DNA of 64,000 bases from Tupaia tana (taxonomy: Eukaryota; Chordata; Mammalia; Scandentia; Tupaiidae): NCBI GenBank assembly GCA_026018925.1, contig JAKSZU010000165.1, positions 248,001-312,000 of the forward strand, in the 5' to 3' direction. Position numbers and translations under genes: made by a program. The notes below the pieces were generated by a model. The model searched no databases, was not told the DNA's origin, and saw only the letters and a program-made list of their open reading frames with translations. Position 1 is the first letter of the stretch, and each line of letters begins with the position of its first letter. This document shows positions 3,116-64,000 of this stretch, piece by piece.

Positions 3116-3439
3116 TGTAGAAAAAACTTTTAAAAGGCACTATATGTATGAAAAGATTTAGATTCTTGATACTGGTAGGGGTAGTATAAAAGTATAGAGT
3201 TCTTAAAGTTTATCCAAAAATGGACATTAAATATGTGCAACTTTTTGGATACTATTTGCACCTCAAAAAACTTTTAAAAAGAACAAACTTGTTTTGTTCT
3301 TTATCTACAAATTGTTTTGTTCTTTATCTTTATTTTGGACTTCTTTTGGTTAAAGTGTTATTGTCATGCAACATAAAAAGAAATAATTTGTAACAAATAT
3401 ATAAATTTAAAACATTCAAATTCTTTTTTCTTTATTTAG

Positions 3440-3690
3440 AGAGATTTTTGCTATAGGGAATGTGTGTTTGTCAGAGAGAGAAAAACAGAGAGACAATAAG
3501 TGAGAAATCACCCACAGGAGGGATAGCCATGCCATAATCCCTTTTCCTCCATTCTTCTCTTGGGATTTGGGGCATGCATGCATACACCACCGGAATGAGT
3601 TTTAAGTCTCCAGTTCTGAGATTTGAACCACGGTCAACTACATGAGAGTCCAGTGACATAACCATTATGCCATCTGTGGTCCCCAAACTT
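3440..3690 (-). mobile_element. SINE-A, old copy
   Basis: The reverse orientation gives gagatttttgctataggg at the left and the head at the right (taaccattatgccatctg). The sister copy is at 47680-47925. Confidence 0.8.
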
Positions 3691-16559: not shown

Positions 16560-16870
16560 TCCAATATTTTAATTTTTATTCTTTTTATTTACATTTAATC
16601 ACTTTATATCTTTACAGTGTAAAACATGACTTTTCCCAGCATGAGTACAGTGCATATCAGACAAAAGACATTACTGTATACATTATCATCAGCAAATAAC
16701 TTTTTTATTTTTGTGTCAGTTATATGTACTTCTTTTTCTTCTAGTTCCCTCCCTCTGCTAATACCTACCCTCACATTATCCCTATCCTTACTATCTGTAG
16801 TATCTATAGTTCTTCTCCCTGCTGCTATACTTTACAATCTTTCAGTTTCTATTATAGAGCATAGACATTC
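16560..16870 (-). repeat. Repeat tail related to part of the composite element
   Basis: Words such as tttacagtgt and cccagcatgagtacagtgca recur at 1490-1545 and 39620-39690 (opposite orientation) and, more diverged, at 44860-44960 within the composite element. Probably the 3' end of a retroelement, but not assigned to a family. Confidence 0.55.
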
Positions 16871-16871
16871 A

Positions 16872-16892
16872 GTGTGTGTGTGTGTGTGTGTA

Positions 16893-16930
<38 letters not shown>

Positions 16931-16931
16931 C
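16872..16931. repeat. (TG)n(TA)n microsatellite
   Basis: The run of gt units changes to ta units at 16910. It is absent in the sister positions at 1310 and 39430. Confidence 0.95.
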
Positions 16932-16934
16932 TAT

Positions 16935-17160
16935 ATTATATTTATTTTTAATTTTTTTACATTTAATCACTACACTTAGTTTGTAAAGTGAATTTTCTAA
17001 CATAAATACATTTCACATGTTATTATCAACAGGTTATAATGCATTTCTGTGTCCCATAAATGTCTTGCCTTTCTATTTTTCTCCTTAATGTCTTTTCTCA
17101 CATTCTCCTCCTTCTCCCACCTTCTTCCCACACTAACTCAGTACTTAATTTGCTTTTCAT
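16935..17160 (-). mobile_element. L1 3'-UTR fragment
   Basis: The reverse orientation has aatcactacacttagtttgt, cataaatacatttcacatg, ttatcatcaacaggttataa and cccataaatgtcttgcc. It is the inverted sister of 1075-1300. Confidence 0.75.
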
Positions 17161-23470: not shown

Positions 23471-24042
23471 GAATAAATTAAACCTGTTTTCAACATTTAC
23501 ATAAGACTGCTTATGATAATATTGATAGAAAAATTATACTGTACAATAAGAAAAATAGGTACACAAAGTGACATGTTATATACAAGAAAAATCAATAGAA
23601 ATTAGGATAGAGATAAAAGTTAGGATATTCCAGAAGAACAAAATAAAGTTATTTTTCTCAGGATATTAATAAGAAAACTATTCATTTCTGTTGTGATGAA
23701 CAAATATAATAAGCCATAAAAATATAAGGTTTATCATAAGGAAAACTGAAGAGAGAGTAGAGAAGAGATCTGGTCTAAATTCTCATCATTGATCACATCA
23801 TTCAGAGCCACAAGATGGACTAACCAAGATCCTCATATGCGAAGATCCAGTTTTAAATCACTTTGGATCTACCTGAAGCTGAAAGAATTCTCCCAGTGTC
23901 ATCAACATAGGCTCTTAATTTGGTATATCTTGGTATTACCTCAGGGTATTTATCTGTGGAAAATTACATAAAAGTGACCATTTCCTTCAACAAGAAAATT
24001 ATATTGTGAGAGTAAATTGCCGAATCTTTGTTTTGTCACCAG

Positions 24043-24950
24043 ATGCAAAACAGTGTGTGCAGTGCCCAGCTCAAGAGTATCCAAACAGTGAAAAAACACA
24101 TTGCCTCCCCAAGCCTATGACATTCCTGGATTTTGAGGATGCTTTGGGGACAGCCATGGCCTGCATAGCTCTCTGTTTCTTTGTTCTCACAGCTATAGTA
24201 TTGGGAATATTTGTGAAGCACAGAGACACTCCCATTGTCAAGGCCAACAACCAGACTCTCAGCTTTATTCTGCTCATCTCCCTCCTGCTGTGCTTCCTCT
24301 GCTCCTTGCTGTTCATTGGCCATCCTAATCCAGCCACCTGTATTTTCCAACAAGTCACATTTGGCCTTGTGTTCACTGTGGCTGTTTCAACTGTTCTGGC
24401 CAAAACAATTACTGTGATTCTGGCATTCAGAGCCATGAAGCCTGGAAGAACCATGAGGTGCTTGCTGCTCTCAGGGGCTTCCAACTCTGTCATTCCTATT
24501 TGTTCCCTGATCCAAATGATTATCTGTGGAATCTGGCTGGGGACCTCTCCCCCTTTCATTGACATAGACTCACATTCTGAGCCCAGGAACTTTATTATCA
24601 TGTGTAACAAGGGCTCAGTCACTGCCTTCTACTGTGTCCTGGGCTACCTGGGCTTCTTGGCTCTGGGGAGCTTCACCATGGCTTTCCTGGCCAGGAACCT
24701 GCCTAACACATTCAATGAAGCCAAGTTCCTCACATTCAGCATGCTGGTGTTCTGCAGTGTCTGGGTCACATTTGTCCCTGTCTATCTCAGCACCAAGGGG
24801 AAGTTCATGGTGGCTGTGGAGGTCTTCTCCATCTTGGCCTCCAGTGCAGGGCTCCTAGGCTGCATCTTTGCCCCGAAGTGCTATGTTATTCTGATAAGAC
24901 CTGATAAGAACTCCTGGGAAGCTTTAAAAAACAGAAGAGGTTCCAAATAA
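24043..24950 (+). pseudogene. V2R exon 6 (locus B), intact seven-transmembrane exon
   Basis: After an acceptor (ttgttttgtcaccag) the frame is open for about 302 codons to TAA. It encodes the last cysteines of the linker ([19 protein letters not shown]), the junction to TM1 ([20 protein letters not shown]), loop 1 ([20 protein letters not shown]), TM3 with the following AFRAMKPGR, the second extracellular loop ([20 protein letters not shown]), TM5, and the family signature [18 protein letters not shown] in TM6 with [19 protein letters not shown]7 ends in FAPKCYVIL and a short cytoplasmic tail. All seven membrane segments appear complete and there is no stop or frameshift. V2Rs are pheromone and peptide receptors of vomeronasal neurons. 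The exon is functional in appearance, but with exons 2-4 missing and exon 1 lacking ATG the locus can hardly encode a receptor, unless missing exons lie out of order elsewhere. Confidence 0.93.
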
Positions 24951-25234
24951 AATCTAAGGTTTATATCATAAGACTGTATCACAATTTTAGGATTTTGAAC
25001 AAAAAATGTACTGATTTTATATTATCATATATTAAAGTAACTGAAAATGACTGCCTTCTTAAGTTAATCTATAAAACAATCATTTCATGCATCTTATCTT
25101 TGACAGTTATTATACTTTTAACTATGATTGGTATCTTAGATTAATGAGTATTTCTTACATTATGGGAATTGATTAAAGGCAACATTTTATTAATTATTTA
25201 GTATTGATTGTGTTCTCCTAGATAGCTTTTTACT

Positions 25235-25237
<3 letters not shown>

Positions 25238-25265
<28 letters not shown>
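25238..25265 (-). mobile_element. Poly(A)-only retrotransposition event
   Basis: A run of about 28 T is flanked by a perfect 19-bp repeat tagatagctttttacttct (25219-25237 and 25265-25283, sharing one T with the run). The inverted sister site at about 32060-32085 and the D site near 56355 each have a single copy and no T run. The insert therefore consists of a poly(A) tail alone, on the minus strand, with a normal target-site duplication. Confidence 0.88.
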
Positions 25266-25268
<3 letters not shown>

Positions 25269-25374
25269 TAGCTTTTTACTTCTATATAGTCAGAAATAAT
25301 ATCTTTACTTCCATATCTGGCTTATTGGTATGTATCTTCTCTCTCTGTTCTAGGAATGTCTTGCTTTATTTAAC

Positions 25375-25508
25375 TTTATTTATTATTGTGATTCCTATTA
25401 TTTATTTTAATTTGACCAGAGTGTGAGCAAGCCCCCAGGTCTGGGACTCAAACTGCAGTCTATCATGTGAGTCCAATGCCATTCACTACCCCATCACCTG
25501 CTCGTCAC
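25375..25508 (-). mobile_element. SINE-B copy at the end of block B
   Basis: The reversed middle taatttgaccagagtgtgag leads to the head end accccatcacctgctcgtc. Its inverted sister is 31826-31960. Both duplicated arms end in this element. Confidence 0.75.
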
Positions 25509-25539
25509 TGAAATGCAAAAATGATGTGAAGAACATAGA

Positions 25540-26180
25540 GTAGGGAAAGAACAGTACTTCAATAAATGGTGCTGGAGATAGTGGCTATTCATGTTAGAAA
25601 GAACAGATTACAAACTTAAATGTAAGACACAAAGCAGTACTACAGAAGAAAAAATAGGAAAATACCAAGGTATTGATCTGGGCCCAGATATTTTGAGGAA
25701 TACCTGAAAATCAGAGGCAACAAAGGCAAAAAAAAAATCCCTTTGATAGTATAGCAAACTGAAATGATTCTCCATCGGAAATAATCAACAGAGTGAAGAG
25801 ACATGCTTCAGGAGAGAGTAGATGTTTTTTCAACCTAGTCATCTAGTGAAAAAGTAATATTCAGAGTATATAAGAAAGTCAATAAACTGAAAAACAAAAA
25901 AAGAAAAACAAAATTAAAAATAAAACACTGCTACAGAATTAAGTCAAGTCGTAAGTAAACATTTCTAAAGAAAATATACAATGACCAAGTATATGAAAAA
26001 AATGTTCTATATCACTAATTACCAACAAAATATAAATAAAAATTACAATGAGCTTTCACTTTACTCTAGTTAGAATGACCATTTTCTATGAGGCAAAAGA
26101 TAACATGTGAAGTGATAAAACATGACACACTTTAAGGTTAACTTACATGGGAAGGTTTACAGTTCACATTTTGAGATCTC
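25540..26180 (+). mobile_element. L1 ORF2 3' fragment, old
   Basis: The words aagaacagtacttcaataaa, tggtgctggagatagtggct and gtaagacacaaagcagtact follow the order of the L1 ORF2 C-terminal region. It has no intact frame. Confidence 0.75.
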
Positions 26181-31425: not shown

Positions 31426-31825
31426 TTATAGAAAAGAAATTCTTTGTTTAAAGCAGGAGGTTCAATAAGCATTGAGGATTTTAATGAATCTTGTCTGAAT
31501 ATTTTGGGAGTCTAGGAGATGGGTTTAGAGCATGGCTTCCCTGAACACACCAGGACACACCTCAGCTTTAAAATGGCTTCTGAAATTAACAAGTTAAATA
31601 AAAGGCCCAAGCTGAGGAGAGATGCTTAAAAATTAAAAAAAAAAAAATTTAAAGAAAGAGAGAGAGAGCATGAGACAGACAGAAATGGAGAGTGAGTGTG
31701 AGACAGACCCATTTAAGTTTGTAAACTGTTTTTTCTGACATGGATAGTCACTATATCCAACACCATTTATTAAAGTACTGTTCTTTCCCTAGTCTATGTT
31801 CTCAGCATCATTTTTGAATTTCAGA

Positions 31826-31960
31826 AGCCAGCAGCTGGCATAGTAGTTGAGAGCACTGGACTCACACATGATGGACAGCAATTTGAATCCCAGACCTGGT
31901 TTCTTGCTTTGTCACTCTCCCTGACTCTCTGTTCAAATTAAAATAAATAATAGTCATCAA
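31826..31960 (+). mobile_element. SINE-B copy at the start of block C
   Basis: The head agccagcagctggcatagta is followed by ctctgttcaaattaaaataa. The sister copies are 25375-25508 (inverted) and 56118-56240 (direct), so this is the oldest shared boundary marker of blocks B, C and D. Confidence 0.8.
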
Positions 31961-32345
31961 AATAATACATTAAGTTAAGGAAAGCAAGACCTTCCTAGAA
32001 AAGAGAGAGATACAAACCAATAAACAAGATATGGAAGTAAAGACATTATTCCTGACTATATAAAAGTAAAAAGCTTTCTAAGATAACACAATATATAGTA
32101 AATAATTAATAGAAATCTGCCATTAATCAATAACTATAATGTAAGAAATATCCATTAATCTAAGATACTAACCATAGTTGAAAGCATAACTGTCAAAGAT
32201 TAGATGCATGCAATGATTGTTTTAAAAATAAATTTAAGAAGTCAGTCATTTTAAATTATTTCATAATATAAGAATATAAAGGCAGCACCTTTTCAGCTCA
32301 AAACCCTAAAATTGTGAAACATTCTTATGATATAGACTTTATACT

Positions 32346-33249
32346 TTACTTGAAACTTTTCTGTTTTTTAAACCTTTTCAAGAATTCCTATTATGCCTTA
32401 TCAAAATAATATAGCACTAGGGGACAAAGATGTAACCTAGGAGCCTTGCACTGGAGGCCAAAATGGAGAAGACCTCCACGGCCACCATGAACTTCCCCTT
32501 GGTGCTGAAATAGACAGGGACAAATGTAACCCAGACACTGCAGAACACCATCATGCTGAATGTGAAGAACTTGGCTTCATTGAGTGTGTCAGGCAGATTC
32601 CTGGCCAGGAAAGCCACAGAGAAACTCCCCAGAGCCAAGGAGTCCAAGTAGCCCAGGACACAGTAGAAGGCAGTGACTGAGCCCTTCTTGCACACAATGA
32701 TGAGGTTCCTGGGCTCAGAATGTGAGTCTATGTCAGCCAAAGGTGGAAAGGTTCGCAGCCAAATTCCGCAGATAATCATTTGGAACATATATCAAATAGG
32801 AATGACAGAGTTGGAAGCCCCTGAGAGAATCAAGCACTTCACTGTTCTTCCAGGCTTCATGGCTTTGAATGCTAGAACGACAGTAATGATTTTGGCTAAA
32901 ACAGTGGGAACAGCCACAGTGAACACAAGGCCAAACATGACTTGCTGGAGGACACAGTGGCTGCATTAAGATGGTCAATGAAGAGCAAGGAGCAGATGAA
33001 GCATGGCAGGAGGGAGATGAGCAGAATAAAGCTGAGAGCCTGGTTATTGACCTTAACAATGGGAATGTCTTGGTGCTTTCCAAAGATCCCACAACTACAG
33101 CTGTAAGAACAAAGAAGCACAGAGCTGTGCAGGTCATGGCTGTCCCTAAAGCATCCTCAAAAAGCAGGAAAGTCACAGGTTTGGGGAGACAGTGAGTTCT
33201 CTCACTGTTTGGATACTCTTGGGCTGGGCACTGGACACACTGTTTGCAT
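32346..33249 (-). pseudogene. V2R exon 6 (locus C), frameshifted
   Basis: The minus strand is a full-length homologue of 24043-24950, with acceptor ttttgtcaccag intact. One A is missing in the fourth codon region (gatgcaaacag against gatgcaaaacag), so the exon is out of frame from the start. Further frameshifts follow in TM1 (after [10 protein letters not shown]) and after loop 1 (near HLNAAT). The TM4 to TM7 part is open ([38 protein letters not shown]), and ends at a TAG where locus B has AAG in FxPKCY. The family stop TAA is still visible at 32346-32348. It is a clear pseudogene. Confidence 0.95.
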
Positions 33250-33681
33250 CTGGTGACAAAACAAATATCCAGCATTTCAATTTCACAAATTGATTGTCAT
33301 GTTGAAGGAAATGGTCTCTTTTGTGTACTTTTCCATGGATAAATCCCCTGAAGTAATACCAAGATATAGCAAATTAAGAGCCTATTTTGACGACATGGGT
33401 GAGTTCGTTTAGCTTCAGGTGGCACCAAAGTGATTTAAAAGTGCATATCAGCATATGAAGATCTTGGTTGACCTATCTTGTTGCTCTGAATGATGTTATC
33501 AATGATGAGAATTTATTCCAGATCTCCTCTACTCTCTCCTGGGTTTTCCTTATGATAAACCTTCTCTTTTCATGGCTTATTATATTTATTCATCACAACA
33601 GAAATAAATTTTTTTATTAATATTCTGAGAAAAATAACTTTATCTTGTTCTTCTTAGAATGTCTTAACTTCTCTCTCTATC

Positions 33682-34371
33682 CTTTTTAAATTTTTTTTTA
33701 ATTTTTTAATTTTTTAATTTTTAAAATTTTTATTATCATCATAATCTTCTTTACATTACATATAACATTACATTGGATTACATATAACTTTACAGTGTAT
33801 TACATTGTATTACATTGCTTTTTCAAAAGGGCATGCCATGCATGTCAGTCAATACAGAGACATTAATCTCCCCACTTCATCATTCAATATCTTTTCTATG
33901 TTTTTCCCAATCATTATTATTATTATTATTCTAATTATTTCTTTTTAAACAGTCAATCATTATTTCTCATTTTGCTTGTAAAAAGACTTTACTCATCATG
34001 AAATACTTCTCAGACCAATCCAGTCGAGAATACTATACATGTCTGCATCAACAGGTAATAAGCCATATCTGTTTCCCACTAATGTCCTGCCTATTTGTTC
34101 TCTTGCTATCTTTCTCTATCCTCTTCTCTTCCCCCCCCCATTCCACACTGTCTTATTCTCGTTAAGTACTTTCACTGCTTTTATGTCCTCCAATAGTTCG
34201 CTCTCTACCATAGAGTGCGGAGAGTCAGTATATATTAAGTGGATACACACAATATCTTTCTTTCATAGCCTGGCTTACTTTACTCAGCAATAGATCCTCC
34301 ATATCTGACTTTCTATCAAATGCCAGGGTCTTGTTATATTTTGTGGCTGAGTGGTATTCCATAGAGTATAT
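33682..34371 (-). mobile_element. L1 3' end, 5'-truncated, reversed
   Basis: Reverse-strand words match the 3' UTR and ORF2 end of the L1 at 62.1-62.7 kb closely (aaaagggcatgccatgcatg, gtcctgcctatttgttctct, ctaccatagagtgcggagag, gagtggtattccatagagta). The flanks ttaacttctctctctatcc (left, about 33664) and ttaacttctctatcc (right, about 34371) are a slightly decayed duplication. Blocks B and D lack the insertion at this site, so it is younger than the duplication. It is from the same young subfamily as the 56.7-kb L1. Confidence 0.9.
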
Positions 34372-38609: not shown

Positions 38610-39115
38610 TTTGCTTTCACCAGAGAGAGATAGAAACAGAAAAAGAATAGGTGAAAAACTGACTGACTGAAGGTTGTACAAACACAAGAGATGGGTGTGA
38701 ATGCCAGGTGTGGTGTGTGTGGAGGAGTGGGGCCTAAGATACGACATTTGGAGGAGGGATATGGAGGCAGAGCATTGATGGGGTGGGGAGGTACGGTTTA
38801 TCGGTTGAAGATATTTTGATCAACTGGACTGGGGAGAAATGTTCACATATTGAAATTTCACTTTCTAAGGTAAACAATGTGATTGAATGTATATAAAAAA
38901 TTAAGAAAATAAATAAAGAAAAAGAAAAAGAAATTCATCCTCAAAAGGGTGGCCACACCACAGTCCCTTTCCCTCCCTTCTCCTCTCAGGATTTCAGGTA
39001 TGCATGCACTTACACATGTCAGGCATAATTTTCAAGTTACCACATCCAGAACACAAACCATGGTTGGCTATGTGAGACCCCAGCTCCTTCACCACTACAC
39101 AATCTGCTGGCTCCA
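38610..39115 (-). mobile_element. SINE-A, old copy split by an L1 3' fragment
   Basis: The two halves (38610-38680 and 38930-39115) together match 827-1045. Between them lies an L1 3' fragment. Confidence 0.65.
38682..38930 (+). mobile_element. L1 3'-UTR fragment inserted in a SINE
   Basis: It contains caactggactggggagaaat, catattgaaatttcac and a tail aagaaaaagaaaaagaaa. Block A shows the uninterrupted site near 870. Confidence 0.75.
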
Positions 39116-39119
39116 TGAA

Positions 39120-39350
39120 AAGTAAATTAAATGCTGAGTTAGTGTGGAAAGAGGGTGGGAGAAGGAAGAGAATGTAAGGAAAGACAGTAAGGAGAAAAAT
39201 AGAGAGGTAAGACATTTATGGGACCCAGAATTTGATTATTATCTGTTGATGATAACATGTATAGAATCCCCAACTGGACAGGTGTAAAATTCACTTTACA
39301 CAATAAGTGAAGTATAGTGATTGAAGATATAAAAGAAATAAAAAGAATAA
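39120..39350 (+). mobile_element. L1 3'-UTR fragment
   Basis: It shares gaggtaagacatttatggg and ctgttgatgataacatg with 1075-1300 and inverted with 16935-17160. Confidence 0.75.
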
Positions 39351-39359
39351 AATATATTA

Positions 39360-39425
39360 TCTATCTGTATCTATCTATCTATATATCTATTTATTTATCA
39401 CTATCTATCTACCTATCTATCTAGA
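39360..39425. repeat. (TATC)n microsatellite
   Basis: A run of imperfect tatc units, not present at the sister positions. Confidence 0.9.
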
Positions 39426-41021
39426 ATGTCTGTGCTCTATAGTAGAAACTGAAAGATTGGAAAATATAGTAGCAGGGAGGGCAACTATGTATACTACAGA
39501 TAATAAGAATAGGGATAATATGAGGGTGGGTATTAGGTTAGGGAGGAAGGGGAACAGAGGAAAATGAAGTACATATAACTGAAACAAAAATAAAAAGTAT
39601 TTGGTGATGATACTGTATATGGAATATCTTTGTCTTGTCTGATATGCACTGTACTTATGCTGGGAAAAGCCATGTTGTACACTAAAGAGGTATAGTAGAT
39701 CCTGAGAAGGATACCATATTTCATCTGTGAAATACTGGTTTCCTTGACCAAAAATGAAAATTTTCTTCTGAGATTTCCCCCTTCAGATTCATTTCTAGTA
39801 GGAAAGGCACTACCCAATTCAGGCCTATCCTCAGATGGATACCATACTTCACTTGTGAAATACAGTTTTATGTGATGTTCACATGCACCACACAGTTTTC
39901 ATTTTTACTTTCTAAAATTATATATCTTATGAGTTTTGTCCTCTTTTTTCTTCTTCTTTTTCAGTTTATTTTTTCTTATTCTTTCCTCTTCTTAATTAGT
40001 TTTCTTCTTTCCTTATCCTTATTCATTGTCTGATCAGCCTCTACACACTTAGTGTCTAGACAGGTCCAAGTGAACAGTTTCCAATCATCTAAATATGTTT
40101 AGGGTAAGAATATTCCTCTCTTCACCTTGAATCTGATGCACAGAGAGTAAAAAGGGAACTGTAGAAAGATTGCAAATCACCTCCTTTTGCTTGCCTCTGA
40201 ATGCTCAGATTGAACTTCAAGAATTTGGAAGAAACGCACCATCCAACAGATGACTAGAAATCACTGCAGAATCATAAAAAAATTTAAAAATCTAGACAAT
40301 ACCTCTTCTCCAAGAGAAAAGAATAACACCTCTTCATCCTCAGAGAGTACAATAAAACTCATGGAAATGTCTGCTAAGGATTTTAGAATGTTCATAATGA
40401 CAAAGCTAACAGAAACGGAAGAGAAGAGAGACAATGAATGGCAGGAGAGGCAGAAGAAATGAGCAGATGAATTCCAGGAGGTGAGGAAACTCTTGCAAGA
40501 TCTAAAAGAGGAAAAACGCATTTTAAAAGAATAAAATGGAATTGTTAAAGATTAAGACTATAATACAGAAAGTCAAAATATCCTTTAAAAGTATTAAAAG
40601 CAGACTAGGACATACAGAAAATTGAATCTCAAATGTAGAAGATAGAGTCGCTGGCCTAGAAAAATCCACCATAAAGACTGAGAAAATGCCCCCCCCCAAA
40701 ATGAGAATAATATACAAGAAATACTAGATACCATCAAACGTCCAAACATCCGGATAATTGGTACCCCAGAAGGTGAAGCAACTCATAAGGGCATTGATAA
40801 TCTATTCCACAAAATTCTGCAAGAAAACTTTCCAAACCTAGAGAGGCACTCAAAGATTCAGATCCAAGAAATACAATGAACCCCCAAGAGAATGAACCCA
40901 AGAAGGTCTTCTTCAAGGCACATTACAGCCAGATTGACCAAAACCACAGATGAAGACAAGATACTAAGATTGGCAAGAGAGAAATGGCAAGTTACTAACC
41001 TACAAAGATTATCCCATCAGG

Positions 41022-43770: not shown

Positions 43771-44087
43771 TAAAGGAAAAATTTTAAAAGGCACTATATG
43801 TATGAAAAGCTTTAGATTCTTGACAGTGGTAGGTGTAGTATAAAAGTGTACAGTTCTTCAAGTTTATCCAAAAATGGACATTAAATACGTGCAATTTTTT
43901 ATACTACTTGCAACTCAATAAAACTTTTTAAAAGAACAAACCTGTTTTGTTCTTTATCTTTATTTAGGACTTCTTTTGTTAAAAGTGTTATGGTGATGTG
44001 ACATTAAAAAGCAATTTGTGAGAGAAAGCGGAAGGCTGGGCCTGGGGAGGGTCCACCGGCTGGGCAGGACAAACTTCTGTGCTGGCC

Positions 44088-44345
44088 ATGGAGGGGTCAG
44101 GGGAACCCCGGCTGGATGCTAAATCCAAGGTCACCAACCAGCTCATAGATTTTCAGTGGAAACTGGGGATGGCTGTGAGCTCCAACAGTAGCAGATCTCT
44201 TAAATATCCATATGTGGTAGTGATGCTAAAAGTGGTGGATCATTCAGGGCAAGTAAAGAACAAGTGCTTTGAAATGACAATTTCACAGTTTCAGAATTTC
44301 TACAGACAGTTCAAAGAAATTGCTGCAGTTATTGAAACTGTCTGA
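44088..44345 (+). CDS. COMMD6: COMMD6 retrocopy reading frame, intact
   Basis: An uninterrupted 85-codon frame begins at ATG 44088 and ends with TGA at 44343-44345. Landmarks are LDAKSKVTNQLIDFQWKLGM, AVSSNSSRSLKYPYVVVMLK, SGQVKNKCFEMTI and FYRQFKEIAAVIETV, the COMM domain of COMMD6, whose usual length is 85 residues in mammals as I remember it. COMMD proteins form the Commander complex in endosomal sorting and affect NF-kappaB signalling. An in-frame GTG nine bases upstream (44079) is not needed. The frame is full-length without lesion, so the copy is young or conserved. As a retrocopy without its own promoter it may not be expressed. There is no visible selection evidence. Confidence 0.88.
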   Translation: MEGSGEPRLDAKSKVTNQLIDFQWKLGMAVSSNSSRSLKYPYVVVMLKVVDHSGQVKNKCFEMTISQFQNFYRQFKEIAAVIETV

Positions 44346-44463
44346 AAGCTGGTTATTTGGTTGAGAACTTGCTGTCATCATTCTTAACACAGACTTCACT
44401 TTCTGCAGTAATATTGCATAAGGATCAAAGGATATTTATTGAATGAAATTACACTGTGGTTTT

Positions 44464-44473
<10 letters not shown>

Positions 44474-44511
<38 letters not shown>

Positions 44512-46753
44512 ATGGACATTAATTTATTGACAGATCTCACTGTGAAGAGACAGGATAACTTTTTTTTCCTTTATTTTTCTTTCTCAGATCAATCACATTC
44601 ATTTTACATAAAGTTCTCATTATGATGTGTACAATATAGATACATGTATCTAGTTTTCAACAGAGAACCCTATATTTTCTGGTGACAAATGACTCCTCCC
44701 TTTGCCCCCCACACCCACTCTCCACCACCCACTCCCGACCCCCCACTCCCCTCCCTTACAGCCTCTGGCATCCACATTTGTCCTTTCTGCTATCAAATCA
44801 TCAGATCTTTCTCCCTCTGCTGGAGTGCTGATATTATTATTGTTATTTTTTTTTCATTGCACATCTTTACAGTGTACAGCGTGGTTTTTCCAGCATGAGT
44901 ACAGATCACATTGGTCAAGACAGTGATACCATCACATACATCATCATCAACAGACCGCCCTTCATCCCTGTGTCCATCAAACGTGATGATCGTTCCCTGA
45001 ACCGCCCTCCATCATTCATTCCCATTACCTCTCCCATGCTGTCTCCAGCATCCGCAGTTGCCATCCCTGCGACCATACCCTCCAGATCTTTCACGCTTTT
45101 TTATTTTTTCCTTTTTCAATTATGAGTTCATAAAGTTTTCCACAATAGGATACATAGATTCTGTTCAGGGTTGGGTCAAGGGTGGGTCTCGTGCAGTTCC
45201 ACAATTGTAGGTGAGTTTCTATGGAATACGGTTCTAGGAGCGCAGTTCTGGTAGGCAGAGATGGTTATCAGTTGATGCAGCACAGCCACTATCCTGTGAG
45301 TACCGAGAGTGGTGTTGTGGGGATCTGCAGCGTGAGTCATCCTCGAGTGTCTGGCTTCCCCAAGAATGGTAGAATAGTTCTTGTTTTTCCCTGAGGTAAT
45401 GCAGGGCTGGTAACCATCATCTTCTCATTGCCCATGGGCAGCGAAAGTCCTCCTATACAATATATTTCTCAATTGGTTTAAGACATCTAAAGATTCTTTC
45501 TGTTGCTTATATTTGCAAGATCTTAATTCTTGTTTTTGTCTTCAGTTTGCTGCTCGTGGCCGGTGGCCACGCGCTGGCCCGGCGGTCACGTGCTGACTCG
45601 TTGGCAACGCCCGGGTGTCTGCCTGGTAGCCATGCACAGGCCTGGCGGCCACGCCCGGGTGTAAACCTGGCAGCCACATGTAGGCCCGGTGGTCACACGT
45701 GGGTGCATGCCCGGCAGCCACGCGCAGGCTCGGTGGTCACCCGCAGGCCCAGCGGCTGTGAACGGGTGCAGGCCCAGCAGCCACACGCAGGCCCGGTGGC
45801 TACGCGCTGGTCCGGTGGCTGCACACAGGCCAGACAGCCACACGCTGGCCCGACGGCCACTCACAGGCGCAGGCCCGGCGGCCACGCTCATGCCTGGCGG
45901 CCACTGGCAGGCCCGGTGGCCACACACAGGCGCAGGCCTGGCGGCCACACACAGGCGCAGGCCCGGCAGCCACGCACAGGACTGGCGGCCATGCTCAGGC
46001 CCGGCGGCCATTTGCCGACCCGGGGGTCATGCGCAGGCCCGGCGGCCACACGCGGGCCCGGCAACCACTCGTAGGCCCGGGAGACACATGTGGGCCCGGC
46101 GGCCACACGGCCCGGCAACCACACTCCGGTCCAGCAGCCGTGCATAGGCTCAGTCCCGGTGGCCACGCATAGGCCCGGCAGCCACTCACAGGAGCAGGCC
46201 CGGTGGCCGGGAGCAGGCCCGGCGGCCACGCGTAGGCGCAGGCCTGGCAGCCACACTCAGACCCGGCGGCCACTCACAAGTCCGGCGGCCTCGCGCCGGC
46301 CCCGCGGCCATGCGCAGGCCCAACGGCCACACGCCAGCCCTGAGTGCACGATTGTGCCCGGGACCTATCGCCATCTCCCACTCGCCTGCCCGTGCAGAGA
46401 CAGAAAGAACGGCGACCTCAGCCTTTTGGTGCCACCGGCCCGTGTCGGCGCCGAGTGCGGGACAGACCCCACACCGGAGAGGCAGCGGGAGCCGGGCGGT
46501 CCGGGCCGTCGCACGCTGAGAGCAGAGGAGAGTCCGCCCCCCGCCCCTGCGCTGGTGCGGGGGGCAGGCTCTGCCGTCGCCTCGCTCCGCCGCCGCCGCG
46601 CTGGCGCGGGGGGCGGGCTCAGCTGCTGCCTCGCTGCCGCCGCCGCGCTGGTGCGGGGGGCGGGCAGCGGGCTCGGCCGCGCCGGCGCGGGGGGCGAAGG
46701 AGCGGGCTCGGCCGCCGCCTCGCCGCCGCCGCCGCCACTCTGGCATGGGGAGA
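44474..46753 (-). mobile_element. SVA-like composite retroelement (novel candidate)
   Basis: Minus-strand order: (1) 46753-46350, very GC-rich and CpG-rich with imperfect tandem units of about 70 bp around gcgcggcggcgg; (2) 46340-45545, minisatellite of 19-bp units; (3) 45540-45095, similar over about 200 bp (45125-45330) to the LTR at 14770-15000, and ending like that LTR with AATAAAAAAGCGTGAAAGATC, of which 20 bp or less match; (4) 45090-44830, similar to the repeat tail at 16.6-16.87 kb; (5) 44830-44508, unique tail with AATAAA 16-20 bp before (6) 40 A (44468-44507 as T). Repeats ggtttttcaatttttt at 44458-44473 and 46754-46769 are the target-site duplication. It has no coding capacity, so it must be mobilised in trans, presumably by L1. 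Only one copy is in the window. A one-off retrocopy of a chimeric transcript is the alternative. Confidence 0.7.
45545..46340. repeat. GC-rich minisatellite, 19-bp unit
   Basis: The period is 19 bp with consensus close to AGGCCCGGCGGCCACGCGC on the plus strand, about 40 units. A 25-bp variant carries an extra aggcgc. Units differ at several positions. Nearly every unit contains GGCC and one or two CpG. It produces long spurious reading frames on both strands (175, 152, 141 and more codons) because the period and composition avoid stops. Confidence 0.92.
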
Positions 46754-46759
46754 GGTTTT

Positions 46760-46763
<4 letters not shown>

Positions 46764-46795
<32 letters not shown>

Positions 46796-47048
46796 GAGAG
46801 GTTTTTCGCTATAGGGCGCGTGCGCTCGCCAGACAGACAGAGAGAGACATAGAGACAGAAAGCGAGAAATCACCCCCCAGGGGGGATGGTCACGCCGCAA
46901 TCCCTTCTCCTCCATTCTCCTCTCGGGATCTTGGGCACGCACGCACACGCGCCCGGCGTGAGTTGTAAGCCACCGGGTCCGAGACGCGAACCGCGGTCGA
47001 CTACGTGGGAGTCCAGCGACATAGCCATTACGCTAACTGCTGGTTCCC
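46764..47048 (-). mobile_element. SINE-A, young copy next to the composite element
   Basis: 31 T (46764-46794) are followed by ggagaggtttttcgctatag and a complete reversed SINE-A with intact CpG sites, ending gctggttccc at 47048. Flanks tcaatttttt (46760-46769 and 47049-47058) are its 10-bp duplication. It entered the right-hand target-site copy of the composite element, reusing the same nick site. Confidence 0.9.
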
Positions 47049-47331
47049 TCAATTTTTTGAAATAAGTCAAACAGGCTGGAATCAGTGATGATTGTGCAGC
47101 CTTGCGGAGGTGCTATACATGACTGAATTGAATGCTCCAGATGGTGTGCTTTGTGGTCTGTGAATTATATCTCAGTAAAAAAAATGTCAAAGGAACAGAA
47201 GAATATAAAAAAAAAATCAAAGGAACAGAAAAATCAAAAGAACAGAAGGCAACACGAGTTTATGTATTAGAACAATAGTTTTTAAATGTATTGGTATTGG
47301 AAGGATTTTATGAAAAAAGTCTCACAAGGAG

Positions 47332-47334
<3 letters not shown>

Positions 47335-47377
<43 letters not shown>
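47335..47377. repeat. (TA)n microsatellite in the COMMD6 retrocopy 3' UTR
   Basis: A pure ta run. Confidence 0.95.
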
Positions 47378-47378
<1 letters not shown>

Positions 47379-47679
47379 ATATATGTACTGATCCTTTGTG
47401 GTTCGTAAGCATGAGTAGGTTTTCACAGTGTTATGTGAGATGTGCCTCCCTCAAACCTTGTTACAACATTGGCACTGTACCTGTCTGATGTAAAAAATAA
47501 ATAAATCATATATAGAAATCAGAAAATTATTATTTGGTTGGCATCACCTTACTAACTTAGTCTTGTAACTGTCCCTTATAATAATAAAAGCAAGAGTAAG
47601 CTTTCTTTTCTCAAAAAAAAAGCAATTTGTAATAAATATATAAATTTAAAACTTTTAAATTCTTTTTTATTAAGAGAGA

Positions 47680-56010: not shown

Positions 56011-56117
56011 CTGAAAATAAATAGTTTATATGTGAAGCTCATTCAAGTCCGGCTGGTAGATTCTGAATTAGAAACACAGATGGAAACGGTAAAGCAAGAA
56101 AATTCTTTAAATTTCAG

Positions 56118-56245
56118 TGGCCAGCAGGTGGTGTAGTAGTTGAGAGAACTGTACTCCCACATGATGGATAGCAGTTTGAGTCTCAGACCTGGGGACTTGC
56201 TTTCTCACTCTCCCTGACTCTCTGGTCAAATTAAGATAAATTATG
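56118..56245 (+). mobile_element. SINE-B copy at the start of block D
   Basis: The head gtggccagcaggtggtgtag leads to ctggtcaaattaagataaat. It is shared with 31826-31960 and (inverted) with 25375-25508. Confidence 0.8.
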
Positions 56246-56627
56246 GTCATCAAAATAATAAAGTTAAATAAAGCAAGATCTTCCTAGAACAGAAAGAGAA
56301 GACACAAATCAACAAAACAGATATGTAAGTAAATACAATATTCTTGACTATATAGAAGTAAAAAGATTCCCAGGAGAACAAAATAAATACTAAATAATTA
56401 ATAAGATGTAACCATTAATCAATACCCATAATGTAAAAAATACCCATTAATCTAAGATACCAATCATAGTTGAAAGTATGACTGTCAAAACTTGGATGGA
56501 TACATTGTTTTAAACATGAATTTAATAAGACAGTCATTTTCAATTATTTATAAGAATATAAAATCTGTACCTTTCAGGTTCAAAACCATAAAATTGTGAT
56601 ACAGTCTTATGATATAAACCTTATATT

Positions 56628-56700
56628 TTATTTGTAACCTTTTATGCTATTTAAAGCTTTCCAGAAATTCTTATCAGGCCTTATCAGAATACTATAGCAC
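56628..56700 (-). pseudogene. V2R exon 6 tail (locus D), cut off by an L1
   Basis: The minus strand gives the last codons, corresponding to ILIRPDKN onwards in locus B (here [14 protein letters not shown]), then TAA at 56628-56630. The rest of the exon lies 6 kb away, to the right of the L1. Confidence 0.88.
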
Positions 56701-56702
56701 TG

Positions 56703-57388
56703 GCACCAGGCGGACTGAAGCCGCAGACCCAACCCCTCCGAACCTCCGCGCATCCCCACTGTTCCTCTTCCTTGGTCCCCAGGTTGGTTGTCTGGGACTC
56801 TAAGACAAACTCCCTCTCTATCCTACCCGCGAACCGGACCAAGCTGACCAGCAGTTCCGGACACAAAGCGGACTGAGGCCGCAGGCCAAACCCCTCTGAA
56901 CCTCTGCTCATCCCCACCGTTCCTCTTCCTTGGACCCCAGGTTGGTTGTCTGGGACTTTAAGACGAACTCCCCCGATCCCACCCATGAACCAGACCGAGA
57001 CTGCCAGCAGTTCTGGACACCAGGTGGACTCAGGCTGCAGGCCCTACTAACCTGGTCCTGTCACTCAGCCTCTGGCACTTTCCCACTAGCCTTTGGACTT
57101 TCTGAATATTGGTTATTTGAATAGCGCGTGGTACACTTTGTGCGCTGCATGATTTCCTTTTTTTGTTATTTTCTTTTGAGGTGTTGCTTATTAGGTCAGT
57201 TGGAGACTCACCACTCCTTAGAAACAGGGAGGATCTTGGGCCATCCAGGACTAGTTGCAACAGTTAATGGTAATTGTGAGCAACAGATAGGCCAACCATG
57301 AGAGAAATCATCAAATATCTATTCCTGTACAACTTTTAACACTCAGAGATACCTTAAATAAGTTAGGAAGCAACATATAGAGTACATA
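56703..57388 (+). promoter_or_regulatory. L1 5' UTR with tandem promoter-like units
   Basis: Three related units begin at about 56711, 56869 and 57025 (cggactgaagccgcag, cggactgaggccgcag, tggactcaggctgcag), a spacing of about 157 bp. The third unit is partial. Shared internal words are ttcctcttccttgg and ccccaggttggttgtctgg. The units are GC-rich with CpG, like the promoter monomers of rodent L1. A unique 5' UTR part (57060-57388) precedes ORF1. Confidence 0.88.
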
Positions 57389-58356
57389 ATGACCAGAAAC
57401 AATCACAGAGGCTCAAGAAATATGAGCAACCAACAAAAGGCCTCTCCCTCAAGGGAAATCCTCAAGCCTACATCAACCACAGTCAATACAATGGACGTCG
57501 TGGACATGTCTGATAAGGAATTCAGAATATTTGTAGTGACCAAACTAACTGAGATGGAAGAGAAAAAAGACAGGGAGCTTCAGGAGATGAGGAAGTCCTT
57601 TAATGACTTGAAAGAAGAAATGGATACCTTAAACAAGAACCAGATGGAATTCTGGGATTGAAGAATGTGATACAGGAAATCAATACCTCCCTTGAAACTA
57701 TTAAAAGTAGGTTAGACCAGGCAGAAGATCGAATCTCTAATGTAGAAGACAAAACATCTGACCTAGAAAAAAGTATCAAGAAGATTGAGAAAACAACCAT
57801 GAAAAATGAGGACAATATACAAGGAATACTCGATGCCATCAAGCGCCCCAACATCCGGATAATTGGTATTCCAGAAGAGGAAGAAAATAATAAGGGCCTA
57901 GATAATTTATTGCAGGAAATCCTGGAAGAAAACTTTCCAAACCTAGAAAGCCATACAAATATCCAAACCCAAGAAATACATAGGACCCTGAGTAGAATCA
58001 ACCCAAGAAAATCCTCTCCAAGGCACATCATAGCCAGACTGGCGAAAACAACAGACAAAGACAAGATACTAAAGTTGGCAAGAGGGAAACGTCAAGTTAC
58101 TTACAAAGGTCACCCTATCAGGCTTATATCGGATCTCTCGGCAGAAACAATGCAGGCAAGGAAAGAACGGGGAAGTATAGTCAAACTGTTGAATGAAAAA
58201 CAATTTCAACCAAGAATACTATACCCGGCAAAATTATCTTTCATATGGGAAAAAAAGATAAAAACATTCTCAGATAAACAAAATTTGAAGGAATTTACCA
58301 ACTCCAGACCAGCTCTTCAAGAGGTTCTGAAGGGAGTACTATACCAGGAAAACTAA
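57389..58356 (+). pseudogene. L1 ORF1, one frameshift
   Basis: The start MTRNNHRGSRNMSNQQ is followed by a coiled coil (VVTKLTEMEEKKDRELQEMR) to 57655, where one base is missing (gaattctggg; the reading then stops in TGA). After the shift the frame continues from 57658 to TAA-equivalent at 58354: KNVIQEINTSLETIKSRLDQ (coiled coil), RPNIRIIGIPEEEE (RNA-binding domain), INPRKSSPRHIIARLAKT, RKERGSIVKLLNEKQFQPRI and the end KGVLYQEN. About 323 residues if intact. ORF1p is the RNA-binding chaperone of L1. Confidence 0.92.
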
Positions 58357-58401
58357 GAAATCAGATGGACAGTTATACGAGAATAAAAAGCAACCAAGAA
58401 A

Positions 58402-61400
58402 ATGGCTCACTTAATGATAGGATCAGGTATGGAAATATCGATAATTACATTGAATGTCAATAGATTAAATTCTCCAGTTAATAGACATAGACTGGCTGAA
58501 TGGATAAGAAAACAGAAACCCTCTATCTGTTGCCTACAAGAAACTCATCTTATGGATAAAGATAGACATAGACTAAAAGTAAAGGGCTGGAAAAAGATAT
58601 TCCATGCAAATGGAAATCAAGAAAAGGCTGGAGTAGCGATACTGATCTCAGACAAAATAGATTTCAAGACAAAAACTGTAAGAAGAGACAAAGAAGGGCA
58701 TTATATAATAGTAAATGGAGTAATCCAAGAAGAAGATATAACCCTTATAAATATCTATGCACCCAACTCAGATGCACCTAAATATGTGAAGAAAAGACTG
58801 CTAGAGCTAAAAGGAGATATAGGGAGAAATACTATAATTGTTGGAGATCTCAACACCCCATTATCTCCTTTAGACAGATCTTCCAAACAGAAAATAAATA
58901 GAGAGATACAGGACTTAAATGATACTATAACTTGAATGGACTTGACAGATATCTATAGAACTTTCCACCCTACATCTACAACATAAACATTTTTCTCACC
59001 CCGGCATGGAACCTTTTCAAAGATTGATCATATGTTAGGACACAAATGAAGCCTTTACAGATTTGAAGGCATAGAAACTGTATCCAGCATCTTCTCTGAC
59101 CATGATAGAATTAAACTCAAGATTAATTTCAAGAAACAACCCCGAAAATAAACAAACACATGGAAACTGAACAACCTACTTCTGAATGACTTCTTCACTA
59201 CTGAAGAAATTAAGGGTGAAATAAAGCAATTTATGGAAACAAATGATAATGAGTACACAAGTGTCCAGAATCTATGGGACACAGCTAAAGCAGTCATAAG
59301 AGGGGAATTCATAGCAATTAGCGCACATAAGAAAAGGATGGAAAGATGGCAAATAGATAACTTATCATCATGCCTCAGAGAATTAGAAAAACAACAACAA
59401 ACAAACTCCCAAAATGCCAGGCAAAAAGAAATAATAAAGGTTCGAGCAGAAAAAAATGAAATAGAAAATAAATGAAACATACAGAAAATAAATGAAAGCA
59501 AAAGCTGGTTCTTTGAAAAGATTAATAAGATCGACATACCATTGGCTAGACTGATCAAGAAGAAGAAAGAAAGAAAGAAAGAAAGAAACCAGATTAATCT
59601 AATATGTGATGAAACAGGCAATATTACTACAGACATAGCAGAAATACAGAATATCATTAGCGGATACTATGATTGACTATATGCCAACAAACAAGATATC
59701 TTGGAGGAGATGAACAAATTCCTGGATGCATATAATCTACCAAGATTGGATCAGGAGGACATAGAGAACCTGAATAGACCCATAACAAGCCAGGAGATTG
59801 AATCAGTAATAAATAACCTCCCAACAAAGAAAAGCCCAGGTCCAGATGGCTTCACTTCTGAAGTCTACAAAACTTTTAAGGAAGAGTTAATCCCTATCCT
59901 ACTAAAATTATTTCTAAAGATTGAAACGGAAGGAAACCTTCCAAATTCATTTTATGAAGCCTCCATCATTCTCATCCCCAAAACAGATAAGGACATGACA
60001 ACAAAGGAAAACTATAGACCAATATCATTGATGAATATAGATGCAAAAATTCTCAACAAGATACTCGCAAATCGAATCCAACAACATATAACAAAGATCA
60101 TTCATCACGACCAGGTAGGCTTTATACCAGGGATGCAAGGGTGGTTCAATATACGCAAGACCATAAATGTAATACACCACATTAACAGAAAGAAAGATAG
60201 AAACCATATGATCATCTCAATTGATGCGGAGAAAGCATTTGACAAAATACAACATCCTTTGATGATTAAGACTCTCAAGAAGATTGGTATAGAAGGGTCA
60301 TTTCTGAACACAATAAAAGCAATCTATTAAAAACCTACAGCTAATATTATACTGAATAGAGAAAAGCTGAAAGCTTTTCCTCTGAAAACAGGTACTAGGC
60401 AAGGCTGCCCACTTTCTCCACTGCTCTTTAATATAGCACTAGAAGTCTTAGCTATTGCAATCAGAGAAGAGAACAATATTAAAGGCATTCGAATAGGCAA
60501 AGAAGAGTTGAAAATATCTCTATTTGCAGATGACATGATGGTATACTTAGAAGACCCAAAGGTATCCGTGAAAAAGCTTCTTGAAGTAAAAAGTGAATAC
60601 AGTAAGGTAGCAGGATACAAAATCAATATCGAAAAATCTATAACATTTCTATTTATGAACAAGTTGAACGAAGCCGAGCTGAAGTAAAGAATCCCTTTCA
60701 CCATAGCCACAAGATGTATAAGATACCTAGGGATAAACCTAACTAAGAAAGTTAAAGACCTTTATAAAGAAAATTATGAAAATCTTAAAAAAGATATTGA
60801 AAGTGGCATTAAAAAGTGGAAGGACATCCCATGCTCCTGGATTGGAAGAATTAACATAATCAAAATGGCAATTCTACCCAAATTAATCTACACGTTTAAT
60901 GCAATTCCAATCAAAATACCAGAAAAATTATTCACAGATCTAGAAAAGACAATTATAGAATTTGTCTGGAATCATAAAAGACCTCGTATTGCAAAAGCAA
61001 TCCTGCACAAGAAGAATGGAGTAGGAGGTATATCACTCACTGATCCCAAGATATACTATAAAGCTGTGGTCATCAAAACAGCATGGTATTGGCATAAAAA
61101 CAGGCATGTAGACCAATGGAATAGAATAGAGACGCCAGAAATAACCCCCAAAGCTTACAGCCAACTGATCTTTGACAAAGGATATCAGTCAATCCATTGG
61201 GAAAAAGAAAACGTCTTTAGTAAATGGTGCTGGAAAAACTGGGTATCCACCTGCAGAAAGATGAAACTGAATCCCCATCTTTCCCCATTAACAACAATCA
61301 ACTCAAAATGGATCAAAGATCTGAACCTAAGACCTCAAACAACAAAGCTACTGGTGGAAAATGCTGGGGAAATTCTGGGAGACATTGGATTGGCAAAGAC

Positions 61401-62245
61401 TTCTTAAATAAGACCCCCAAAGCACAGGTAATAATCCCGAAAGTAGACAAGTGGGACTATATTAGACTAAAAAGTTTCTGCACAGCAAAAGACACAGTAT
61501 CAAGTGTGAACCAACAACCCTCAGACTGGGAAAATATTTTTGTTAAATATGCCTCAGACAAGGGACTGATAACCAGAATACACAGGGAACACAAGTGCCT
61601 TATGCGAAAAAAAATGATTAACCCAATTAAAAGATGGGAAAATGAGCTGAACAAAAATCTCTCTAAGGAAGATATACGAACAGCCAAAATCATATGAGGA
61701 AATGCTCAACATCCCTCATCATAAGGGAGATGCAGATAAAAACCACAATGAGATACCACCTAACCCCTGTCAGAATGGCAAAGATGAAGAATATAAAAAA
61801 TGATACGTGTTGGCGGGGATGTGGTGAAAAGGGAACCCTCCTACACTGTTGGTGGGAATGTAAACTAGTTCAACCACTGTGGAGAACAATATGGAGGTTT
61901 CTCAAAGATCTACAAATAGAACTACCATTTGACCCAGCAATCCCGCTTCTGGGTATTTACCCGAAAGACAGGAGAACACTCAGTCAGAAAAGTGCTTGCA
62001 CATCAATGTTTATTGCAGCATTATTCACAATTGCCAAGACATGGAACCAACCTAAATGTCCACAAACTGATGAACGGATTGGAAAAGTGTGGTATATATA
62101 CTCTATGGAATACTACTCAGCCATAAAAAATAACAAGACCCTGGAATTTGATAGAAAGTGGTCAGATACGGAGGATATATTGCTGAGTGAAGTAAGCCAG
62201 GCTATGAAAGAAAGATATTGTATGTATCCACTCAATATATACTGA
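58402..62245 (+). pseudogene. L1 ORF2, several stops and frameshifts
   Basis: Endonuclease domain from about 58430 (ISIITLNVNRLNSPVNRHRL, catalytic QETH at about 58540, IYAPNSD, GDLNTPLSPLDR) to a TGA at 58933-58935. Further breaks lie at 58985-59165. Reverse transcriptase domain 59700-60700 with [54 protein letters not shown], and the catalytic FADD box near 60523-60534 after a stop at about 60328. C-terminal region 60865-62245 with [39 protein letters not shown] (zinc-knuckle-like) and the end [14 protein letters not shown]. An (aaag)n run is at 59566-59587. All catalytic motifs are readable, but the frame is broken. Confidence 0.95.
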
Positions 62246-62740
62246 CTACCTGCACTCTATGGTAGAGAGCAAAAAATTGGAGGACATAAAAGCAGTGAAA
62301 GTACTTAACGAGAATAGGACAGTGTGGAATGGGGGGGCGTGAGGAGAAGAGGATAGAAAAAGATAGCAAGAGAACAATAGACAGGCAAGACGTTAGTGAG
62401 AAACAGATATAGCTTATTACCTCTTGATGATGACATGTATAGTATTCTCAACTGGATTGGTCTGAGAAATATTTCATGATGGGTAAAGTCTTTTTACAAG
62501 CAAAATGAGAAATAGTGATTGACTGTTTTAAAAAATAATTAGAATAATAATAATGATTGGGAAAAACATAGAAAAGGTATTGAATGATGAAGTGGGGAGA
62601 TTAATGTCTCTGTATTGACTGACATGCATGGCATTCCCTTTTGAAAAAGCAATGTAATACACCGTAAAATTATATCTAATTCAATGTAATATAAAGAAGA
62701 TTATGATGATAATAAAAATAAAAATGGAAAAAAAAAGAAT

Positions 62741-63578
62741 AATATAGCATTTGGGTACAAAAATGCAGCCTTGGAGCCCTGCACTGGAGGCCAAAATGGA
62801 GAAGACCTCCACAGCCACCATGAACTTCACCTTGGTGCTGTGATAGACAGGGAAAAATGTGAACCAGACACTGCAGAACACCAGCATGCTGAATGTGAGG
62901 AACTTGGCTTCATTGAATGTATCAGGAAGGTTCCTGGCCAGGAAAGCCACAGTGAAGTTCCCCAGAGCCTAGAAACCCAAGTAGCCCAGGACACAGTAGA
63001 AGGCAGTGACTGAGCCCTTTTTCCACACGATGATGAGGTTTCTGGGCTGAGAGTGTTAGTCTATGTCAACAAAAGGCGCAGAGGTTCCCAGCCAGATTCC
63101 ACAGATTTGGATCAGGGAACAAATAGGAATGACAGAGTTAGAAGCCCCTGATAGCAGCAAGCACCTCATTGTTCTTCCAGGCTTCATGGCCTTGAATGCC
63201 AGAATCACAGTAATGGTTTTGGCCAAAACAGTGGAAACAGCCGCAGTGAACACAAGGCCAAATACAACTTGTTGGAGAACACAGGTGGCTGCATTAGGAT
63301 GGCCAATGAAGAGCAAGGAGCAGAGGAAGCATGGCAGGAGAGAGATGAGCAGAATAAAGCTGAGGGCCTGGTTGTTGGCCTTGACAATGCAGTGTCTCGG
63401 TGCTTCGCAAAGACTCCCTAAACTATAGCTGTGAGGAAAAAGCAGCACAGAGCTATGCAGGCCATGGTTGTCCCAAAAGCATCCTCAAAAGCCAGGAATG
63501 TCACAGGCTTGGGCAGGCAGTGAATTCTTTCACTGTTTGGATACTCTTGAGCTGGGCACTGGATACACTGCTTTGCAT
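62741..63578 (-). pseudogene. V2R exon 6 (locus D), stops, frameshift and L1 insertion
   Basis: Minus-strand homologue of 24043-24950 with acceptor ttttgtcaccag. The open start ([38 protein letters not shown]) shifts frame near 63420 after TAIV. The second stretch is open ([40 protein letters not shown]) but lacks six nt in TM4 (SLIQICGIWLG) and stops at TAA after FVDID (about 63057). Another TAG is at about 62969. The third stretch has [18 protein letters not shown] and FVPKCY, then the L1. Each lesion differs from those in locus C. Confidence 0.94.
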
Positions 63579-63579
63579 C

Positions 63580-64000
63580 TGGTGACAAAACAAAGATCCA
63601 GCAATTCAGTTTCATGAATTGATTGTCATGTTAAAGAAAATGGTGACTTTTGTGTAATTTTCCACAGATGAATCTCCAAGAAAATACCAAGATATACCAA
63701 ATTAAAGGCCTGTGTTGATAACACTGGGAGAATTCTTTCAACTTCAGGTGGCATCAAAGTGATTGAAAACTGGATCTCAGTATCTAAAGATCTTTGTTGA
63801 CCCCTCTTGACTCTGAATAATACTATCAATGATGAGAATTTATTCCAGATCTCTTCTCTACACTCTCCTCTCTTTTCCTTATAATGAACTTTATATTTCC
63901 ATGGCTTATCATAGTTGTTCATCATAACAGACATGATAAGTTTTCTTTTTAATATTCAGAAAACAAGAAATATCTTGTTCTCCTGAAATAATTTCTATCT
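63580..64000 (-). other. Intron 5 sequence of V2R locus D
   Basis: It matches 33250-33660 and (inverted) 23620-24040. No exon 5 is reached before the window ends. Confidence 0.75.

Follow-up and report, generated by a model that had tools for sequence, protein, structure and literature searches.

How did a series of parts that are unrelated in sequence come to stand in SVA-like order at one locus of the window, by which we mean the whole 64-kb stretch of DNA analysed here? The initial annotation had described a composite retroelement at this site and had raised the idea that an independent lineage assembled the plan of SVA. Reading the minus strand from 46753 to 44508, we found a single, continuous retro-inserted unit, whose sequence bears out the order of modules that had been given for it (Table 1). 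On balance, this unit is probably the DNA copy of a single polyadenylated, non-coding RNA of chimeric make-up, which came from a single parent locus and was mobilised by L1.

Table 1 Modules of the composite element in 5′ to 3′ order, its borders and host SINE, and the L1 3′UTR sites of the window.
Feature	Position	Strand	Remarks
Host SINE, its A-run being the insertion site, flanked by AAAAAATTGA	46764-47048	-	profile match 47046-46799
Target-site duplication, copy 5′ of the element, TTGAAAAACC	46754-46763	-	preceded by the SINE A-run 46764-46794
GC-rich 5′ part	46541-46753	-	~47-bp tandem repeats at 46541-46735
GC-rich stretch without tandem structure	46341-46540	-	
VNTR, 37 unit starts, consensus GTGGCCGCCGGGCCTGCGC with 25-bp variants	45557-46340	-	
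Piece that is perhaps internal ERV sequence	45313-45556	-	no convincing relative in the window, no Pfam match
LTR-like piece	45114-45312	-	related to 14755-14986
Segment A, L1 3′UTR end	44848-45094	-	profile built from three other copies
Segment B, probably diverged L1 3′UTR of the segment A type (tentative)	44575-44833	-	
67-bp tail, AATAAA starting at 44528	44508-44574	-	
40-A run, A-tail of the element, possibly including target As	44468-44507	-	
Target-site duplication, copy 3′ of the element, TTGAAAAACC	44458-44467	-	follows the 40-A run
L1 3′UTR sites, seemingly with two related tandem units	1000-1560, 16560-17150, 39050-39700, 62250-62745		

The borders of the unit are well defined. The sequence TTGAAAAACC occurs only twice in the window, both strands considered, and each occurrence lies at a border of the element. 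The copies are preceded by A-runs, one of 40 A on the 3′ side of the element and one of 31 A, belonging to the SINE, on the 5′ side. A duplication of 16 bp had been proposed here; what can be determined is 10 bases, TTGAAAAACC, together with an indefinite number of As. Since any number of the flanking As may belong to the target, the 40 A need not all be tail of the element. The tail itself is as had been described, with an AATAAA located 15 nt ahead of the A-run. The duplication (10 certain bases plus As), the 3′ A-tail of 40 A with its upstream AATAAA and the integration at the A-run of a SINE that was already present agree with the L1-type movement that had been suggested, and an L1-type insertion is thus well supported.

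The composite entered at the end of the A-run of the host SINE, between this run and the 3′ flank of the SINE. Upstream, the SINE is bordered by AAAAAATTGA, and AATTGA follows its A-run (46794-46764). The T-run on the other strand of this A-run was the target of the insertion, and the nick, for which a TTTT/A-type endonuclease site would be expected, could sit anywhere within it. The host SINE is in turn located inside a plus-strand retrocopy of a COMM-domain gene (PF07258, E 7.9e-19), which we take to be COMMD6. This retrocopy (44006-47630) has a duplication of its own, with AAAAAGCAATTTGT at 44006 and 47617, and a segmental copy of the region (3340-3440, with the site near 3375-3391) is without the retrocopy insert. 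As it lies within a SINE that lies within a retrocopy, the composite is the youngest of the three layers. The retrocopy interval also contains a match to the U13 snoRNA at 47391-47490 (Rfam RF01210, 83.5 bits), and the window as a whole is very SINE-dense, with 65 matches (E up to 1e-3) in 64 kb from one tRNA-type lineage and older monomers.

Because its parts are unrelated in sequence, the series might be taken for chance neighbours or for an artefact of the assembly rather than for one unit. We consider this extremely improbable, given that the duplication and the A-run bracket the full series of parts and that the host SINE and the retrocopy resume on both sides of it.

Downstream of the VNTR, the 3′ half of the element is AT-richer, with a sharp change in composition at the VNTR border. 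The segment that had been ascribed here to another repeat is indeed repeat-derived; it spans 45094-44848 (segment A), and its sequence identifies it as the end of an L1 3′UTR, an assignment that is new relative to the initial annotation. Against the repeat units at 1300-1560, 39425-39700 and 16560-16870, segment A scored 141, 125 and 127, respectively, while the best scores from 200 dinucleotide shuffles were 46, 43 and 42. Direct comparison with the 3′UTR of the L1 in the window gave weak scores of 33 and 35, which were reached by 8 and 6 of 200 shuffles. The tie to the L1 3′UTR comes from a single profile that matches both sequences: built from three copies with segment A left out, it matched 45094-44863 with an E of 3.6e-20 and the L1 3′UTR at 62564-62673 with an E of 1.4e-7.

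Segment B probably belongs, as a diverged unit, to the L1 3′UTR type of segment A, a tentative assignment that depends on the composition of the profile. With segment A included, the profile gave 19.0 bits (E 9.2e-6), a score reached by none of 300 shuffles (best 3.2 bits); without segment A, it gave 4.8 bits and an E of only 0.25, the best shuffle reaching 1.1. The profile of unit 1 had no match in segment B. In pairwise comparisons, between 1 and 60 of 200 shuffles scored at least as high as segment B.

The L1 at 57607-60687 in the window has recognisable Pfam L1 ORF1 domains, endonuclease and reverse transcriptase, and no Pfam family was found in the L1 pieces at 60688-61407 and 61667-62245. 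The L1 3′UTR of this lineage seemingly comprises two related tandem units, each with an A-rich end. Just upstream of the L1 ORF1 region, 56704-57043 forms a direct repeat of ~184 bp with 84% identity, probably representing L1 5′UTR monomers. A class-C receptor gene is also present in the window, as several segmental copies (23604-25622, 31710-33683, 62736-63990 and 56106-56701). A 7tm_3 match at 23919-24950 (E 3.3e-87) is open for 343 aa, and the other receptor copies look broken; the cluster (PF00003) is presumably of V2R type. Together with the L1 domains, the COMM-domain retrocopy and U13, this receptor points to a mammalian genome, and the 65 SINE matches suggest that it is not a hominoid one. 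A 23-base SINE word had no match among viral and prokaryotic contigs, which was to be expected.

The LTR part had been credited with a relative of its own at 14770-15000. This applies to the LTR-like piece, which shares 81% identity with 14755-14986 in an alignment of 199 ungapped columns (79% and 86% in separate blastn pieces), but not to the adjoining 45313-45556, for which the best blastn match within the window, with an E of 0.52, is unconvincing. A search for ERV proteins at 45330-45560 found no Pfam family in any of the three frames. As to the retroviral-type poly(A) signal, an AATAAA does start at 45105, just past the end of the LTR homology, and it is plausible as a retroviral signal, but it lies beyond the aligned sequence. 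The relative (14340-14986) carries an inserted SINE flanked by AAAAAGGCACGATG. Beyond this SINE, the relative continues past CAATAAAAAGGC into a strong 13-bp hairpin (z -3.54, with none of 200 shuffles equally good) that, as a predicted fold, resembles a retroviral R region. The putative assignment as LTR is based on the similarity to this relative, on CAATAAAAAGGC and on the R-like hairpin.

The 19-bp minisatellite noted before is present as a VNTR of 784 bp with a GC content of 0.745, whose units are mostly 19 and 25 bp long. The unit starts were located by fuzzy search, and the most frequent of their 36 spacings are 19 bp (19) and 25 bp (8), the remainder being 20 bp (3), 18 bp (2) and 16, 24, 26 and 43 bp (1 each). 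TRF reported overlapping periods of 19, 25, 38, 44, 63 and 88; as these include multiples of 38, 44 and 63 bp, the unit length depends on how the array is cut. For the 31 of 37 units amenable to cutting at 19 bases (six were dropped because of indels or incompleteness), the mean pairwise identity is 73% and the identity to the consensus 84%. A mean of 73% implies that the array was old or unhomogenised at the time of copying. When CpG decay in the same 31 units was considered for dating the VNTR, transitions proved to be raised at CpG positions (0.177 vs 0.067), but so did transversions (0.069 vs 0.029).

Upstream of the VNTR, the GC-rich tandem 5′ part was recovered with a period of 47 and 4.2 copies at 46541-46735. 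Neither blastn nor tblastx found a relative of the complete 5′ part (46541-46753) elsewhere in the window, and the tail at the opposite end (44508-44574) had no relative in the window with an E below 0.034. We also considered a structured 5′ RNA and rejected it, since 46541-46690 folds no better than its shuffles (z -1.03, with 29 of 200 equally good). The border at 46341/46340 reads CAG/GG, which is splice-like and too short to count as evidence.

The modules differ in their CpG content. The observed/expected ratio is 1.03 at 46541-46735 (GC 0.87), 0.92 at 46345-46540 (GC 0.70) and 0.74 in the VNTR. Further downstream, the ERV-side piece has a ratio of 0.39, segment A one of 0.61 and segment B with the tail one of 0.08; the window has 0.24 and the host SINE 1.08. 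This profile suggests a CpG-rich start joined to older DNA. Given the ratio of 1.08 in the SINE, CpG richness alone is no proof of a promoter island. As evidence of age the profile is mixed, the LTR piece and segment B with the tail being decayed and segment A not. In the LTR piece, 4 CpGs have been lost to TG/CA, against 2 in its relative. Segment A retains all 6 or 7 aligned CpGs, at which its relatives have none (2 or 3 are TG/CA), which is at odds with a 3′ half that is old throughout.

A protein-coding element was rejected as an explanation, as none of the three frames scanned (45400-46074 on the plus strand, 46365-46808 on the minus strand and 46075-46968 on the plus strand) contained a Pfam family, either within the element or across its border. 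The element would therefore depend on L1 in trans. From its structure, we infer that the composite originated as a transcript. Transcription would have started at a promoter rich in GC and CpG that contained tandem repeats of its own, and the RNA may have read through, or been spliced across, the GC-rich minisatellite, then the ERV/LTR-derived piece and then the L1 3′UTR, with its 3′ end at the AATAAA ahead of the A-tail. This RNA would have been taken in trans by L1 proteins, the T-rich strand nicked at the A-tail of the older SINE, and the copy pasted in by target-primed reverse transcription, giving rise to the TTGAAAAACC duplication. The parent locus would have left one or a few such copies. 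Counting against a transcript origin, no parent locus came to light in the 64 kb.

The sharp change between the VNTR and the AT-richer 3′ half could also mark a jump point, at which the L1 reverse transcriptase switched in a one-off event from an LTR/L1 RNA to a GC-rich VNTR RNA. Chimeric retrogenes produced by template jumps of LINEs are on record, according to the excerpted text of PMC2104539. We nevertheless regard such a switch as unlikely: two RNAs would be required, for neither of which a parent came to light, while the LTR, the L1 sequence and the unique tail already make one plausible read-through RNA.

Compared with this copy of a single chimeric RNA, a multi-copy family has a lesser, though appreciable, chance of being correct. 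Such a family would be SVA-like, independent and non-autonomous, mobilised in trans by the L1 of a non-hominoid mammal, and composed of a GC-rich tandem 5′ part, a VNTR, a retroviral LTR piece, an L1 3′UTR and an A-tail. The module order and 3′ end mirror those of SVA and LAVA as outlined in the excerpted text of PMC4432496, the element extends from the duplication to the A-tail, and the window L1 is of a type able to supply the enzymes. That CpGs have been kept by the 5′ parts, by the VNTR and by segment A is likewise what a young, amplifying element would show. Against a family stand the diverged VNTR units (mean 73%), where LAVA has nearly perfect EagI repeats (PMC4432496, excerpted text), and the fact that blastn found no second copy of the composite in the 64-kb window. 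The latter is weak evidence, because we estimate that about a thousand copies per 3-Gb genome would seldom place two in a window of this size. At one locus, a family copy would look identical to a one-off copy, and we treat the independent SVA-like lineage, doubtful as it presently is, as a testable idea and not as a result.

The SVA-like anatomy is real, with a GC-rich VNTR, a 3′ part of LTR-like and L1 sequence, an A-tail and a duplication. In the excerpted text of PMC4432496, VNTR composites are specific to hominoid primates and have in common a CT-hexamer/Alu-like 5′ region, which LAVA shares; the central VNTR of SVA has units of 30-50 bp, and the 3′ part of LAVA consists of AluSz and L1ME. 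Among the open-access literature matches listed, none concerned a VNTR composite outside the hominoids. On the strand of the element, the CT-hexamer CCCTCT is absent from 44508-46753, and the 5′ part is the 47-bp GC-rich tandem instead. An Alu-like 5′ region was sought indirectly: the three Rfam matches at E up to 5 included no SRP/Alu family, and none was above its gathering score. A 15-base Alu word, with up to 3 mismatches allowed, had 10 matches, two of them in the VNTR (0-based 45905 and 46101) and the rest outside the element, which we take as chance matches of GC-rich sequence. The basic VNTR units, mostly 19 and 25 bp, fall outside the 30-50 bp of the hominoid composites. In the 3′ part, LTR-like and L1 3′UTR sequence was found, which may or may not be of HERV-K or L1ME origin. 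Membership in the hominoid VNTR composites (SVA, LAVA, PVA and FVA) was thus rejected, as no CT-hexamer and no Alu-like module was detected and the VNTR unit is another; the composite is not one of them, and is like them in architecture and insertion mode.

If a second, unrelated lineage with this plan were at hand, combining a GC-rich VNTR with a borrowed 3′ end would be a repeatable way of exploiting L1. The combination of a VNTR with a retroviral or L1 3′ end would then be a recurring design among L1 parasites, and the lineages could be compared for which modules matter to mobilisation. If it is a one-off, the locus clearly illustrates the starting material, namely one chimeric RNA in SVA-like order that L1 inserted.

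With processed retrocopies, including gene capture of the PVA kind, the composite shares an A-tail, a duplication and a nearby upstream AATAAA, and for this explanation a single locus is enough; it differs from them in that no parent locus came to light and in having no Pfam match in the three frames scanned, within the element or at its border. Like the SVA of hominoids, it has a central GC-rich VNTR, an apparently retroviral 3′ part, an A-tail and a target-site duplication, and movement by L1 in trans is plausibly common to both. It departs from SVA in its VNTR unit of 19/25 bp, not the 30-50 bp given in the excerpted text of PMC4432496, and in a 3′ part that runs on into L1 3′UTR. The LAVA element of gibbons likewise has an L1 fragment at the end of the 3′ part that follows its VNTR, whereas the 3′ part of the composite consists of an LTR and an L1 3′UTR of the window type, with no Alu-like part found. 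The 3′ half of the composite joins a retroviral part, such as SVA has, to an L1 part, such as LAVA has.
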